A stretch of DNA of 64,000 nucleotides from Candidatus Babelota bacterium (GTDB lineage: Bacteria; Babelota; Babeliae; Babelales; Chromulinivoraceae), in contig JACPFN010000011.1 of the NCBI GenBank assembly GCA_016183005.1, positions 1 through 64,000 of the forward strand, in the 5' to 3' direction. This document shows positions 34,549-39,648 of this stretch, piece by piece (the first letter of the stretch is position 1; every line of letters starts with the position of its first letter). Under the pieces are notes generated by a model that did not search any database, had not been told where the DNA came from, and saw nothing but the letters and a program-made list of their open reading frames with translations. A program made the position numbers and the translations under genes.

Positions 34549-36429
34549 TTATGAGACTTCTGTGTCTATTGGCCCATTTTGGTTATTGTTATCATTGCTG
34601 TTTTTGTCTTCACTTGTTTGAGCAGCTCCTTGTTTATAAAGTTCTTGAGCAACCTTTTGTGCTTTATTCATCAATGCTTCATATGCTGCTTTAAGTCCCT
34701 CGAGATCATGCTCTTTTGTTTGAAGGTCTGCTTTTGCGACTTCGATTGCAGCCTTGAGCTCATCGGCATCAGCTTGAGAAATTTTAGCCTTATGTTCATC
34801 GAGTGTTTTTTCTACCTGCATAATCATACCATCAAGCTTATTGCGAGCTTCGACCGTTTCTTTGATTTTTTTATCTTCAGTTTCGTGCTCTTTTGCATCT
34901 TGAACCATTTTTTGTATTTCTGATTCAGATAGACCGCTGCTGTTGGTAATTTTAATGCTTTGCTCTTTGCCGGTACCTTTATCTTTTGCTGTGACATTTA
35001 AAATACCATTTGCATCGATATCAAGTGTAACTTCGATTTGAGGTACACCGCGTGGAGCAGCTGGAATACCTTCGAGTTTGAAGCGACCAAGTGATTTGTT
35101 ATCTTTTGCAAGTTCGCGTTCACCCTGGGTGATGTGAATTTCAACAGAATCTTGATTGTTTTCAGCGGTTGAAAATACTTGTGATTTTTTAGTTGGAATC
35201 GTTGTGTTACGTTCAATTAATTTTGTTGCAACGCCACCAAGAGTTTCGATACCAAGTGAAAGAGGAGTTACATCGAGAAGTAAGACATCACTTACTGAAC
35301 CGGTCAAGATTCCACCTTGAATAGCAGCGCCGACTGCAACTACTTCATCAGGGTTAACAGATTTATTTGGAGCTTTACCAAAGAAATCTTTTACAATTTC
35401 TTGGACTTTTGGCATTCGAGTTGAACCACCGACTAAAATAACTTCATCGATCTGACTGCTTGATAGGTTTGCATCGGTCATAGCTTGTTTGCACGGTTTA
35501 ATGAGTCGTTCAAAGATTGACGCGCAGATGCTTTCTAGTTTTGCACGTGAAAGTTTTACGGAGAGATGCTTAGGTCCAGATTCATCTGCCGTGATGTAGG
35601 GTAAATTGATTTCTGTTTCAAGTACTGAAGAAAGTTCTTTTTTAGCCTTTTCAGCCTCTTCCTTGAGACGCTGTAAAGCCATTTTGTTTTTGTAAAGATC
35701 GATTCCTGTATCTTTTTTGAATTCCTCGATGAGATATTTCATGATAATTTCATCAATATCATCACCACCGAGTTTATTATCGCCGCTTGTTGATTTAACT
35801 TCGATTAAACCATCTTGTATTTCAAGAATTGATATATCAAATGTTCCACCACCGAAGTCGAATACTGCGATTGTTCCATTTTTCTTTTTTTCACAACCGT
35901 ATGCAAGAGCCGCTGCTGTTGGTTCATTAATGATACGCTTTACATTAAGACCCGCGATGCGTCCTGCATCTTTAGTTGCTTGACGTTGTGTATCGTTAAA
36001 GTAAGCTGGGACGGTGATGACTGCTTCCGTTACAGTTTGCCCTAAGTATTCTTCTGCTGTTTGCTTAAGATATGTTAGAATTGCAGCTGATACTTCCTGA
36101 GGTGACATTTTTTTACCATCGATTTCAAATGCTACATCACCATTATCAGCGCGAACTACTTTGTATGGATAGTTTGCTGTTTCATTTTTAATCTCTTCAT
36201 ATGTGTGACCGATGAAGCGTTTTGCTGAATAAATAGTGTTTTCTGGATTTGTAATAGCTTGACGTTTTGCTGTTACACCTACGAGACGTTTTCCGTCTTT
36301 GCTGATTGCAAAGATAGAAGGAGTTGTATTTTGTCCTTCTTTATTTGGAATAACTTTTGTTGTTTGACCTTCCATCACCGCTACTGCAGAGTTGGTTGTT
36401 CCAAGGTCAATTCCGATTATTTTTGACAT
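34549..36429 (-). CDS. dnaK: Chaperone DnaK (Hsp70)
   Basis: A 626-residue Hsp70. ATPase domain starts [13 protein letters not shown], has [13 protein letters not shown] and the linker region [20 protein letters not shown]; the substrate domain contains [10 protein letters not shown]. The C-terminal lid is helical and ends in an Asn/Asp-rich tail ([13 protein letters not shown]). Bacterial DnaK refolds proteins with DnaJ and GrpE; neither gene is adjacent. A sigma-70-type promoter and inverted repeat lie directly upstream. Confidence 0.98.
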
Positions 36430-36482: not shown

Positions 36483-36512
36483 ATTGTAACTACTTTTATG
36501 GATCATTGTCAA
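36483..36512 (-). promoter_or_regulatory. dnaK promoter
   Basis: On the minus strand TTGACA (36512-36507) is followed by 17-18 bases and TTACAAT (about 36489-36483). Perfect -35 and good -10 for a housekeeping sigma factor. It is about 55 bases upstream of the ATG. Confidence 0.6.
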
Positions 36513-36518
36513 TAAGTT

Positions 36519-36535
36519 TTAGTGTAACTCGCTAA
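36519..36535 (-). promoter_or_regulatory. Candidate heat-shock operator upstream of dnaK
   Basis: TTAGTG-TAACT-CGCTAA is a nearly symmetric inverted repeat with 6-bp arms (one mismatch), seven bases from the -35 box. It resembles a CIRCE half-site in TTAG and CTAA but not in the rest. An HspR-like regulator is encoded at 24316-24780. Confidence 0.3.
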
Positions 36536-36559
36536 GATTTCCTGAGACTTTATCATAAC

Positions 36560-36631
36560 GCCGCAAGGCTCTCACCCCGCCTTATACTCCGCTAGAAGGG
36601 CTTTGGGGGAGCGGCCTGAGAGCCTTGCGGC
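36560..36631. repeat. GC-rich inverted-repeat element
   Basis: Arms 36560-36574 and 36617-36631 are perfect 15-bp inverted repeats (GCCGCAAGGCTCTCA). The interior (36575-36616) is also GC-rich and can form a smaller CCGCT/AGCGG stem. The whole is strikingly GC-rich in an AT-rich genome. It lies in the 314-bp gap upstream of dnaK. It looks like a mobile palindromic repeat or a structured RNA; no second copy was seen in this window. Confidence 0.75.
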
Positions 36632-36690
36632 TTGAAATTGTAAATTTAATAAAAGGGGGTATGGAAAGAAAAAAGAGTATGAAAAACAAA

Positions 36691-36710
36691 AGAGGGCGAT
36701 CATGCCCTCT
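36691..36710 (-). terminator. Terminator of the 36744 gene
   Basis: AGAGGGC and GCCCTCT (7 bp, 6-base loop) with a T-rich run on the minus strand. It is 34 bases past the stop of the small secreted protein gene. Confidence 0.65.
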
Positions 36711-36743
36711 CGTTTTTAACCTGCTTGTTACGTAACTATCAAT

Positions 36744-37160
36744 CTATTCATTGGGAATGTTGGTCAATGCATTATTGGTTAAACTATTGCTATTTTTCAT
36801 TAAATTAATAGCTGACTCAATTTGTTCTTGAGTCTTTTTAAAATAATGAATTGTTTTGTGTATTTCACGATCTTTTTGAGCTGAGCCATTTGAACTTAAA
36901 GATTGTGCCTTTTTAATTCTTGATCGACGTACGCCAGAAACGGATTTGTCTTTAGAATCAAATCTTGATGCTGAGTTATGTAGTTCTTCAACACGGTCTA
37001 TTTCCTTGAATAAATCACGCATACTGGCATGAATATCTTTGTCAGCAGTAACTAAATCTTTTACAGGCTCAATTGAATGATCATTATGCTTACAATTTAA
37101 AGACTTTGATATAGAAAAAATCGCTGCGATGAAAGCAATTTGATAAATGCAAATCTTCAT
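36744..37160 (-). CDS. Small secreted helical protein, function unknown
   Basis: A 138-residue protein with a signal peptide (MKICIYQIAFIAAIFSISKS) and a hydrophilic helical body with many Lys, Glu and Asn (DLFKEIDRVEELHNSAS, KTQEQIESAINLMK). Arg/Lys-rich RRSRIKKAQSLSSNGS sits in the middle. GGAG is six bases upstream of the ATG. No family recognised. Confidence 0.55.
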   Translation of the reverse strand: MKICIYQIAFIAAIFSISKSLNCKHNDHSIEPVKDLVTADKDIHASMRDLFKEIDRVEELHNSASRFDSKDKSVSGVRRSRIKKAQSLSSNGSAQKDREIHKTIHYFKKTQEQIESAINLMKNSNSLTNNALTNIPNE

Positions 37161-37383: not shown

Positions 37384-38778
37384 TTAAAGGACTAATATAT
37401 AATAATTGATGATATATATCATCAATGATACTAAACTACTTATCCCAATTGTTAACATTCGTATTCTCCATGAAATGACAATGCCCCAAATTCGATGCGC
37501 AATATACATAATGCTAATGATAAAACACAACCTAAAAAGAATAATAGGAATTAAAATAAATTCAGCAGGAATATGAATGACAAAATGCATGCATAAAAAC
37601 AATAACCCGTACATAGCAAGATTGATACCATTGGCAATAGCAAGTATCCACGACTTACGCTGCGTTAAGTACCACTTTTCGTACGCAATAACTAAATATT
37701 CAATAAATCCTGCAAAAATAAATAGAATAATATTGAATATTACCGCCGAAGAAAAACAAAGATTAATACATAAACAAGAGATAACAATGGAACCTATGGT
37801 TATACCTAACGCATATAAAAATTGAGTATACCAAGTAATAACCCTTACAAACGTTTGCTGTGAAATAGAGATTTTTTCTTGATCTTTGTCTATGGTGGTT
37901 TGCTTTGCAATAGAAGAAAATAATGCAGCAGTCGGTAACCCAAATGAACGATTTAATACCATATATAACAAAACAATAATATCAGTGAATAGCTTAATCT
38001 GACCAACCTTTGCTAAACCTAAGTAGCAAGCTAATACTATAATGAAAAAATTAGGGGAAAATAAAGCCTTGGCTATCTGATTAATATAATTAATTATTTG
38101 ATTGCCTATGATCTCTTTGAATGATGGAATTATGCTTTTTGAATCCTCAACGGGTATTCTTGTGTAAAATTTATAAATGGTCTGCGCAAGCAAACAGCAC
38201 TCTGCAAATGAGATGATTGCCATAGGAATGAATATTGTCAGTAAGCTTATCTGACCAAATAAACAATAACAACTCCACACAGAAGATACATATATAATAA
38301 GTGTAGAAATATCAAAAATAGAAATGGTCTTTTGTAAAAACAACATTTGCGCTAGTACATCAAGAGACTTTTTAATACTTTCTGAAATAAAAATAAAAAT
38401 GATTATAGCTAAAAGCAGGGGAGTTGTATGCTCTATGATATTGGCGACGGGACAAAGTAAAATATGTCTATTAATATACCATAAAAGAATGATTACCATG
38501 ATCATGCATACTAATCGGGCAAAAAACAGGGGGATCAGTTTTTTAAAATTTTTTTGAGAAGCGGTATAAATATTATGATGCGTAATAATAAAATAATCGA
38601 ATCCTATATTGGTTACACTAATTAAAAAATAAATAGAAGAAAATAGAGTACCAATAAGACCAAAGAGCTGACTTGGAATTATACTAAATAATAAAAGCTG
38701 ATGAGTTTGTAATATTATTTTATATAAAAAAATATTAATCACATTATAGGACATTGCTTTAAAAAAATTATACAACAC
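37384..38778 (-). CDS. Multi-pass transporter resembling MATE/polysaccharide flippases
   Basis: A 464-residue integral membrane protein with about twelve hydrophobic helices (IFLYKIILQTHQLLLFSII; YFLISVTNIGFDYFIIT; PLLLAIIIFIFISESI and so on). The N-terminal pattern LFGLIGTLFSSIYFLISVTNIGFD and the length match MOP-superfamily exporters such as Wzx-type lipid-linked sugar flippases. I see no diagnostic residues, so this is fold-level. The start is a GTG at 38778 with AAGGG seven bases before it. Cargo and neighbours are unclear; no glycosyltransferases are near. Confidence 0.5.
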   Translation of the reverse strand: MLYNFFKAMSYNVINIFLYKIILQTHQLLLFSIIPSQLFGLIGTLFSSIYFLISVTNIGFDYFIITHHNIYTASQKNFKKLIPLFFARLVCMIMVIILLWYINRHILLCPVANIIEHTTPLLLAIIIFIFISESIKKSLDVLAQMLFLQKTISIFDISTLIIYVSSVWSCYCLFGQISLLTIFIPMAIISFAECCLLAQTIYKFYTRIPVEDSKSIIPSFKEIIGNQIINYINQIAKALFSPNFFIIVLACYLGLAKVGQIKLFTDIIVLLYMVLNRSFGLPTAALFSSIAKQTTIDKDQEKISISQQTFVRVITWYTQFLYALGITIGSIVISCLCINLCFSSAVIFNIILFIFAGFIEYLVIAYEKWYLTQRKSWILAIANGINLAMYGLLFLCMHFVIHIPAEFILIPIILFRLCFIISIMYIAHRIWGIVISWRIRMLTIGISSLVSLMIYIINYYILVL

Positions 38779-38987: not shown

Positions 38988-39590
38988 ATGTTTCTTGTTA
39001 ACGATAAAGTAGTATATCCTGGATATGGAGTAGCTTTAATAAATAAGTTGGTTCAAAGATTGGTGTCAGGTAAAATGACCAGTTTTTATGAGTTAAAATT
39101 TTTTAATAAAGATATGTCCGTACTTATTCCAGAGGATCGTATTGAAGCAGCTGGAATTCGTAAATTAAGCAGCGATAGAGATCTTGAAGAAATGTTTAAA
39201 ATCTTATCTGAACCTTTTAAAAAAGGAAATTACGAAATAGGTTTCAATAATTGGAATAAAAGAAATAAAAAATATCAACTCAATTTGAGATCTGGTGATC
39301 TTTTAAAAATTTGTCATATCTATAAAGATCTTGAATGGATATCAAAGAGCAAGGATCTTTCTTTTGGTGAAAGAAATTTAAAAACAAAAATTGAACAATT
39401 ATTAATTGAAGAAATTTCTATTGTTAAAAATATCGATAAAGAAAAAGCATTAAAAACATTACATAAAACATTCGTTGGTGCATCACAAGCAGAATCTAAA
39501 AAAATTACAAAAATTATTGATGATCATGAACCGATAACTCCAACGAAAAGGACGAAGTCAAGCAAAGGACTCGTAGAAATTATTATATAA
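38988..39590 (+). CDS. CarD-family RNA polymerase-binding regulator
   Basis: A 200-residue protein. Residues 1-65 are the CarD/TRCF RNA-polymerase-interaction domain: MFLVNDKVVYPGYGVALINKL, then FYELKFFNKDMSVLIPEDRIEAAGIRKL. The rest is helical and charged and continues to a Lys-rich tail, as in the DNA-binding CarD C-terminus. CarD proteins bind the beta subunit and stabilise open promoter complexes. GGAGAG upstream supports the ATG. A long perfect palindrome begins at its stop codon. Confidence 0.85.
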   Translation: MFLVNDKVVYPGYGVALINKLVQRLVSGKMTSFYELKFFNKDMSVLIPEDRIEAAGIRKLSSDRDLEEMFKILSEPFKKGNYEIGFNNWNKRNKKYQLNLRSGDLLKICHIYKDLEWISKSKDLSFGERNLKTKIEQLLIEEISIVKNIDKEKALKTLHKTFVGASQAESKKITKIIDDHEPITPTKRTKSSKGLVEIII

Positions 39591-39648
39591 AAAGAGATGA
39601 AATATAAAGGGCTCTAAATTTAGAGCCCTTTATATTTCATCTCTTTTT
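39589..39648. terminator. 60-bp perfect palindrome at the end of the CarD gene
   Basis: Arms 39589-39618 and 39619-39648 are exact reverse complements, with no spacer, beginning in the TAA stop. The core is AGGGCTCTAAATTTAGAGCCCT. In RNA it forms a very stable stem, with TTTTT in the 3' arm, so it is a strong terminator that could work in both directions. Confidence 0.75.

Follow-up and report, generated by a model that had tools for sequence, protein, structure and literature searches.

Some small regulatory RNAs have C-rich loops that pair with ribosome-binding sites. Another described group is that of REP and the palindromic elements of Rickettsia; the element reported here resembles them as a GC-rich palindrome in an AT-rich intracellular bacterium and differs in being present as a single copy at a fixed place. 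The bacteria in question belong to the Babeliales, which NCBI places in Candidatus Babelota and whose phylum is called Dependentiae in the papers. The known Dependentiae are intracellular parasites with small genomes, and a structured RNA near dnaK across much of the phylum, if true, would be a new and testable regulator. The relevant passages of two Dependentiae genome papers name RNase P RNA, SRP RNA and tmRNA besides rRNA and tRNA (PMC4378268, PMC6561590); RNA-seq and transcriptomes are nowhere mentioned in the main text of PMC6561590. Among the titles of the literature searched (preprints and most subscription journals lie outside it) none reports an element of the kind described below, and the best reading of the hairpin family to which it seems to belong is a structured RNA for which no earlier report was found. 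The palindrome itself is, somewhat better than evenly, to be read as a local diverged copy of this putative RNA, which would be encoded in a single copy near dnaK, on the dnaK strand, in many Dependentiae.

The window, i.e. the whole stretch of 64,000 nucleotides that was analysed, carries at 36560-36631 a 72-bp palindrome with GCCGCAAGGCTCTCA at one end and its exact reverse complement at the other. It sits between dnaK and an open reading frame of 138 aa and spans 131-202 nt from dnaK. The features of this locus are as follows:

34549-36429, minus strand: dnaK, by gene identification
36483-36512, minus strand: TTGACA-18-TACAAT, a promoter-like site for dnaK that agrees with the consensus at 11 of 12 bases and lies between the gene and the hairpin
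36519-36539, minus strand: operator-like CTTAGCG...ACTAA directly before the TTGACA of the dnaK promoter, an imperfect inverted repeat
36548-36555, minus strand: 3' flank GATAAAGT, read as a decayed GACGGAGT, 5 of 8 positions by hand count against the motif
36560-36631, minus strand (the dnaK strand): the palindrome (hairpin stem and loop), by inverted repeat and folding
36575-36616, minus strand: hairpin loop with CCCCC, resembling the loop of the congener G002, by loop alignment
36632-36641, minus strand: 5' flank ACAATTTCAA, read as a decayed ACGNAGTCNA, 5 of 8 fixed positions by hand count against the motif
36690-36711, both strands: terminator-like hairpin dividing the palindrome from the upstream gene, by hairpin search

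The preliminary description had spoken of a GC-rich 72-bp palindrome with perfect 15-bp arms and a composition unlike its surroundings, and both statements were confirmed when the arms were rechecked and the composition was computed (67% GC; 0.667 for the palindrome against 0.320 for the whole window). The arms are perfect over 15 bp and, when mismatches are allowed, extend to 21 nt at 90% complementarity. The 60-base GC maximum at the palindrome (0.67) tops the ten stretches of the window that reach at least 0.55 and exceeds that of the tRNA. Other perfect 15-bp inverted repeats with a spacing of up to 60 occur at three places in the window, all of them AT-rich with 1-5 G/C of 15, so that with at least 9 G/C of 15 the palindrome is the only one; when the window was shuffled 40 times with its dinucleotides preserved, no perfect inverted repeat of 15 bp, whatever its composition, appeared within that spacing. 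As RNA, positions 36555-36640 fold at -46.8 kcal/mol on the plus strand (z -5.8) and at -41.7 kcal/mol on the minus strand (z -4.3), values that none of 200 shuffles equalled on either strand. The window copy is a stable GC-rich hairpin upstream of dnaK. It has no adjoining T-run on either strand and lacks in this respect the mark of an intrinsic terminator. Rfam at the gathering score found only the tRNA over the window, and the best sub-threshold match at the palindrome was carA, with 18.6 bits against a cut-off of 100.

Several observations concern the neighbourhood. Promoter-like sites in the region are not more numerous than in shuffles. Among the 91 upstream regions of dnaK in relatives, GACTAAG was noted in 23 and CACTAAG in 16. 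HrcA was detected in 0 of 10 genomes, on which ground HrcA/CIRCE was rejected as the dnaK regulator, and it may be asked whether the CTTAGCG...ACTAAG-type repeat could be the heat-shock operator of some other regulator. The 138-aa frame (36744-37160) has no match in 48 relatives and belongs to no Pfam or NCBIfam family. A multi-spanning membrane protein at 37384-38778 is likewise devoid of Pfam and NCBIfam matches; among 30 loci compared, 5 have a relative of it upstream of the hairpin, and the neighbourhood is therefore partly conserved. A further palindrome, at 39589-39648 directly after a CarD-like gene, is perfect over 30 bp, spacerless and AT-rich, and is probably a terminator.

By blastn with 111 bases the palindrome was found once in its own 905-kb draft genome, and in 48 relatives only as fragments of 21-24 bases in 3 genomes (E 0.001 to 0.09), around which no palindrome could be recognised by eye. 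A mobile palindromic repeat (REP, RPE), which would be present in many copies, is rejected on account of the single copy, and with it falls the first of the two suggestions that had been made for this element, namely membership of a REP/RPE-type family. A plasmid origin is rejected as well, there being no match in a plasmid collection.

The upstream regions of dnaK were compared across the phylum. Of 101 genomes, 92 yielded dnaK at the threshold applied, and 90 upstream regions were usable (G070, with dnaK at a contig end, and G030, with 85 bases, were left out); the 7-mers were counted over 91 regions. ACGGAGT is the most widespread 7-mer with at least 3 G/C, being present in 32 of the 91, while GACGGAGTR or GACGGAGTG has just 0-4 occurrences per whole genome (7 and 27 genomes counted). 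On the dnaK strand the architecture of the family reads ACGNAGTCRA, a variable GC-rich stem, a C-rich loop, the other arm, GNA and GACGGAGTG. Scanned for both motifs together with a stem, 42 of the 90 regions reach a score of at least 50 on the dnaK strand and none does on the opposite one, and of 270 shuffles 1 reaches it; the 42 of 90 are not an independent test because the motifs came from the same 90 regions. Scan and covariance model combined mark 57 genomes. G047 is doubtful, and G060 is located differently by the two methods. The distance from collar to collar is 58-66 nt in 21 of the 42 regions, 103-106 nt in 7 and 146-147 nt in two more, a step of about 44 nt. The loops are rich in C (35% against 20%), with CCCC in 24 of 41, and the 60 nt preceding the hairpin contain 64% pyrimidines against 51% over the region. 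A promoter or terminator consensus was looked for in the family and not found. A terminator after GGAGTG is striking by eye in a few genomes, yet it was dismissed with 1 of 42 against 0.74 expected, and a switch with a downstream anti-motif, seen in G020 and G080, is not general (2 of 40 against 2.24). Rfam offers no family for two strong members at E up to 1, nor a matching one over 20 dnaK loci at the gathering score.

The evidence for an RNA-like structure comes from the pairing of the arms. In the 42 regions, chosen on the motifs alone, own arms pair at a mean of 21.2, against 10.6 (sd 0.59, maximum 12.5 in 200 rounds) for arms swapped between genomes, and 22 of the 42 single regions lie above the 95th percentile of swapped arms. 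A first alignment of 23 elements had 74.7% of cells paired and double changes in 12 of 16 pairs, and 2 of 500 shuffles matched it in one measure. For the model R1, whose 21 elements have short loops, G047 and G086 were then dropped. In the MAFFT alignment of the remaining 21, 80% of cells are paired and changes on both sides are found in 14 of 17 pairs; none of 500 shuffles reaches any of five measures, and the paired fraction goes down to 34-39% when the partner is slid by one base. The 48 model-aligned matches show double changes in 16 of 17 pairs, in an alignment that is fitted to the model and includes G094 twice (once cut off) and the disbelieved match of G015. The family has covarying base pairs, and beside them the collar pairs AC/GU and GUC/GAC, which are nearly constant and enclose a 3x3 purine loop GNA/GGA.

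The mismatches of the stems bear on the strand of folding. Between paired neighbours, the 48 fitted stems contain 6 G.U and 24 G.A against 0 A.C and 2 C.U, and the unfitted 21 stems contain 2 G.U and 11 G.A against 0 A.C and 1 C.U. Single mismatches collected without the model, with three pairs on each side, are G.U 3, G.A 3, C.U 1, C.C 2 and A.C 0. Folding of the dnaK strand appears moderately favoured, because on the other strand the same mismatches would read as A.C and C.U. When every stem cell is counted, G.U does not outnumber A.C (11 against 17), and an excess of G.A over C.U is already predicted by the composition of the arms alone.

The covariance model R1, built from 21 members all of which had been picked for lying upstream of dnaK, was run over all of the sequence of 101 genomes of the phylum, under the stricter filters that apply to sets larger than 40. 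It matches 41 of them, with a second weak match in G099, and 40 of the 41 matches lie on the dnaK strand upstream of dnaK at 129-5702 nt. These 40 comprise the 21 training genomes and 19 further genomes on which the model was not trained; in 9 of the 19 the distance to dnaK exceeds 1,000 nt, and the match falls beyond the regions from which the motif came. The exception, in G015, is weak (E 9.7e-4), downstream of dnaK and on the other strand. No match was obtained in any of the 16 genomes of family f3, in the window's own genome or in the congener G003. In other groups R1 gave 0 matches in 78 dnaK loci (0.92 Mb, E up to 1) and 0 in 24 whole genomes, for most of which only the first 150 candidates were scored. 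The hairpin is a single copy per genome at one locus. It can be said that a family of hairpins, with its pairing, its place, its strand and, as far as tested, its restriction to the phylum, is established computationally.

How the window copy relates to this family is a separate matter. R1 scores it at 6.4 bits on the plus strand, opposite to dnaK, and at 5.6 bits on the strand of dnaK, in neither case with the collar. Of the collar motifs ACGNAGTC and GACGGAGT, each is retained at 5 of 8 positions. When its loop is aligned with the loop of G002, the score is 32 (shuffles 16.8, sd 2.9; 0 of 400 as high), the best loop score among the dnaK upstream regions compared, next to which stands 31 for G021 from another family. 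G004 scores 28, a value reached by 1 of 400 shuffles, G005 is equalled by 35 of 400, and G003 and G006 are not above shuffles. ACGGAGT lies 248, 151 and 137 nt from dnaK in the congeners G002, G003 and G005, and this place matches that of the window palindrome. Since the flanks are decayed, the RNA reading of the window copy rests on position, the strong hairpin and the likeness of its loop to that of G002. On this basis the window copy is rather likely a diverged ortholog with a rewritten stem and a decayed collar; the loop of G021, which scores nearly as high as that of G002, lowers the odds a little. The copy may have lost its function. The second suggestion of the preliminary description, a structured RNA with a function beside dnaK, is in this way upheld in part: compensating changes and a constant place and strand are present in the hairpin family, and the flanks of the window copy have decayed. 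The search for copies and for conservation proposed there returned compensating changes in the hairpins of relatives and no multiple copies. The same description would have given up the element as a single copy not conserved in close relatives, which is correct for the DNA sequence and incorrect for structure and place. Such a test at the DNA level would mislead, as it is structure and place that are conserved and not the sequence. By BLAST a palindrome can look unique and yet be an ortholog that has kept its pairing under a rewritten stem.

The rival readings differ in whether the hairpin works at all, and if so as what. That the window palindrome is a functionless, lineage-specific one, unrelated to the family and at the same place by chance, is improbable. 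The decayed flanks, the 5-6 bits of the model and the nearly equal loop score of G021 would agree with it; the lack of any such repeat in the 40 shuffles, the same position relative to dnaK as in G002, G003 and G005, and loop scores reached by 0 (G002) and 1 (G004) of 400 shuffles speak to the contrary. The hairpin could otherwise control dnaK itself in cis, as a leader or as an upstream element, and belong for instance to a longer heat-shock transcript, as it is always on the dnaK strand and 28 of the 40 R1 matches are within 700 nt of the gene (median over all 40, 413 nt). Against this stand the promoter-like site that intervenes between hairpin and dnaK in the window, the distance of 2.2-5.7 kb in six genomes, and the opposite-strand open reading frames of at least 70 aa, predicted by length only, that lie between hairpin and dnaK in G094, G095, G038, G099 and G065, which together leave the leader reading an outside chance. 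Unlikely, though less so than either of these, is a site acting at the level of DNA, where the hairpin would form in single-stranded or supercoiled DNA and serve, with a ATTATGCGACA motif, a recombinase or a terminus process in the manner of dif. The single copy at one locus would suit such a site, and so would the motif itself, which occurs 46 times on the dnaK strand and twice on the other in the 90 regions and lies 95-374 nt 3' of the hairpin in all 7 tested genomes with a hairpin at least 0.95 kb from dnaK. GTCGCATAA resembles the XerC half of dif, and a second arm like TTTAACATAA accompanies 6 of 42 sites, always at 7-nt spacing, as compared with 1.6% of 883 other TTAT sites. It is absent from most sites, and the strand asymmetry of the stem mismatches is a further argument against a DNA site.

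The position on the chromosome gives a divided answer for the DNA site. Skew positions were taken from sampled stretches, and the switch is from plus to minus. In G098, G036 and G018 the GC-skew switch is some tens of kb away from the locus, which is in favour, but it does not coincide with the hairpin; in G004 the two are at least 50 kb apart, the skew is positive in all bins of the window, and G051, which has no hairpin, likewise has its dnaK near the switch. In all four sampled genomes (G098, G036, G018 and G051) dnaK itself was observed tens of kb from the switch. A TTATGCGAC-like motif is found near dnaK in 2 of the 7 tested far-hairpin genomes; G088, G092 and G006 are outside these 7 in the placement test, and in G092 TTATACGAC lies 286 nt from dnaK. 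The ATTATGCGACA motif was also noted 3' of the hairpin in relatives, e.g. at the loci L148, L150 and L162. A dif site proper, for which a pair of arms some 6 nt apart would be expected right at the skew switch, is rejected. Similar to dif/Xer sites is the GTCGCATAA half-site that accompanies the hairpin in many relatives; dissimilar are the mostly missing second arm, the position away from the skew switch, and the window copy, in which the motif was not found. It would be a long shot to see in hairpin and ATTATGCGACA together a new type of single-copy locus in the terminus half, where the folded strand would be recognised by the ACGNAGTC/GACGGAGTG collar while the stem drifts, and which would serve recombination, segregation, fork arrest or a guiding RNA throughout the phylum.

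In the preferred reading, that of a structured RNA, the hairpin core would be closed by ACGNAGUC and GACGGAGU (AC/GU and GUC/GAC pairs around the GNA/GGA purine internal loop), and beyond the collar would come a GC-rich stem that changes fast and has about 5-20 pairs, and then a loop, rich in C, of some 8 to 200 nt. The hairpin is probably transcribed as an independent small RNA and not as a dnaK leader, because it lies upstream of the promoter-like site of dnaK in the window and 2-6 kb away from the gene in six genomes. Its exposed C-rich loop might pair with target mRNAs at their G-rich ribosome-binding sites, and a protein might dock at the constant purine collar; both are guesses and the weakest steps of the proposal.

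Two well-known RNAs were considered and rejected. RNase P RNA gives no RF00010 match at the hairpin, and RF00010 is found elsewhere in 20 of 21 genomes, the window's genome having its own copy on contig C12. For 6S RNA there is no RF00013 match either, with 0 of 21 genomes positive and a control in which 6 of 14 were found. 6S RNA is comparable as a long hairpin RNA whose role is vacant in these genomes, given that Rfam detects it in none of the 21; the hairpin family is unlike it in having no central bubble and no outer closing stem, the latter failing as a general feature in 40 elements (-15.5, and -14.6 with sd 0.6 when the flanks are swapped). The candidate structured RNAs of comparative genomics, of which PMC2864571 is by its title an example, offer another comparison: these too have conserved motifs around a covarying stem and no known function, and the hairpin family departs from them by its confinement to one phylum and one neighbourhood and by the lack of an Rfam match. 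With the small regulatory RNAs with C-rich loops the hairpin family has in common a stable stem and an exposed C-rich loop; it differs from them in that the terminator test was negative and that its transcript and targets are putative.
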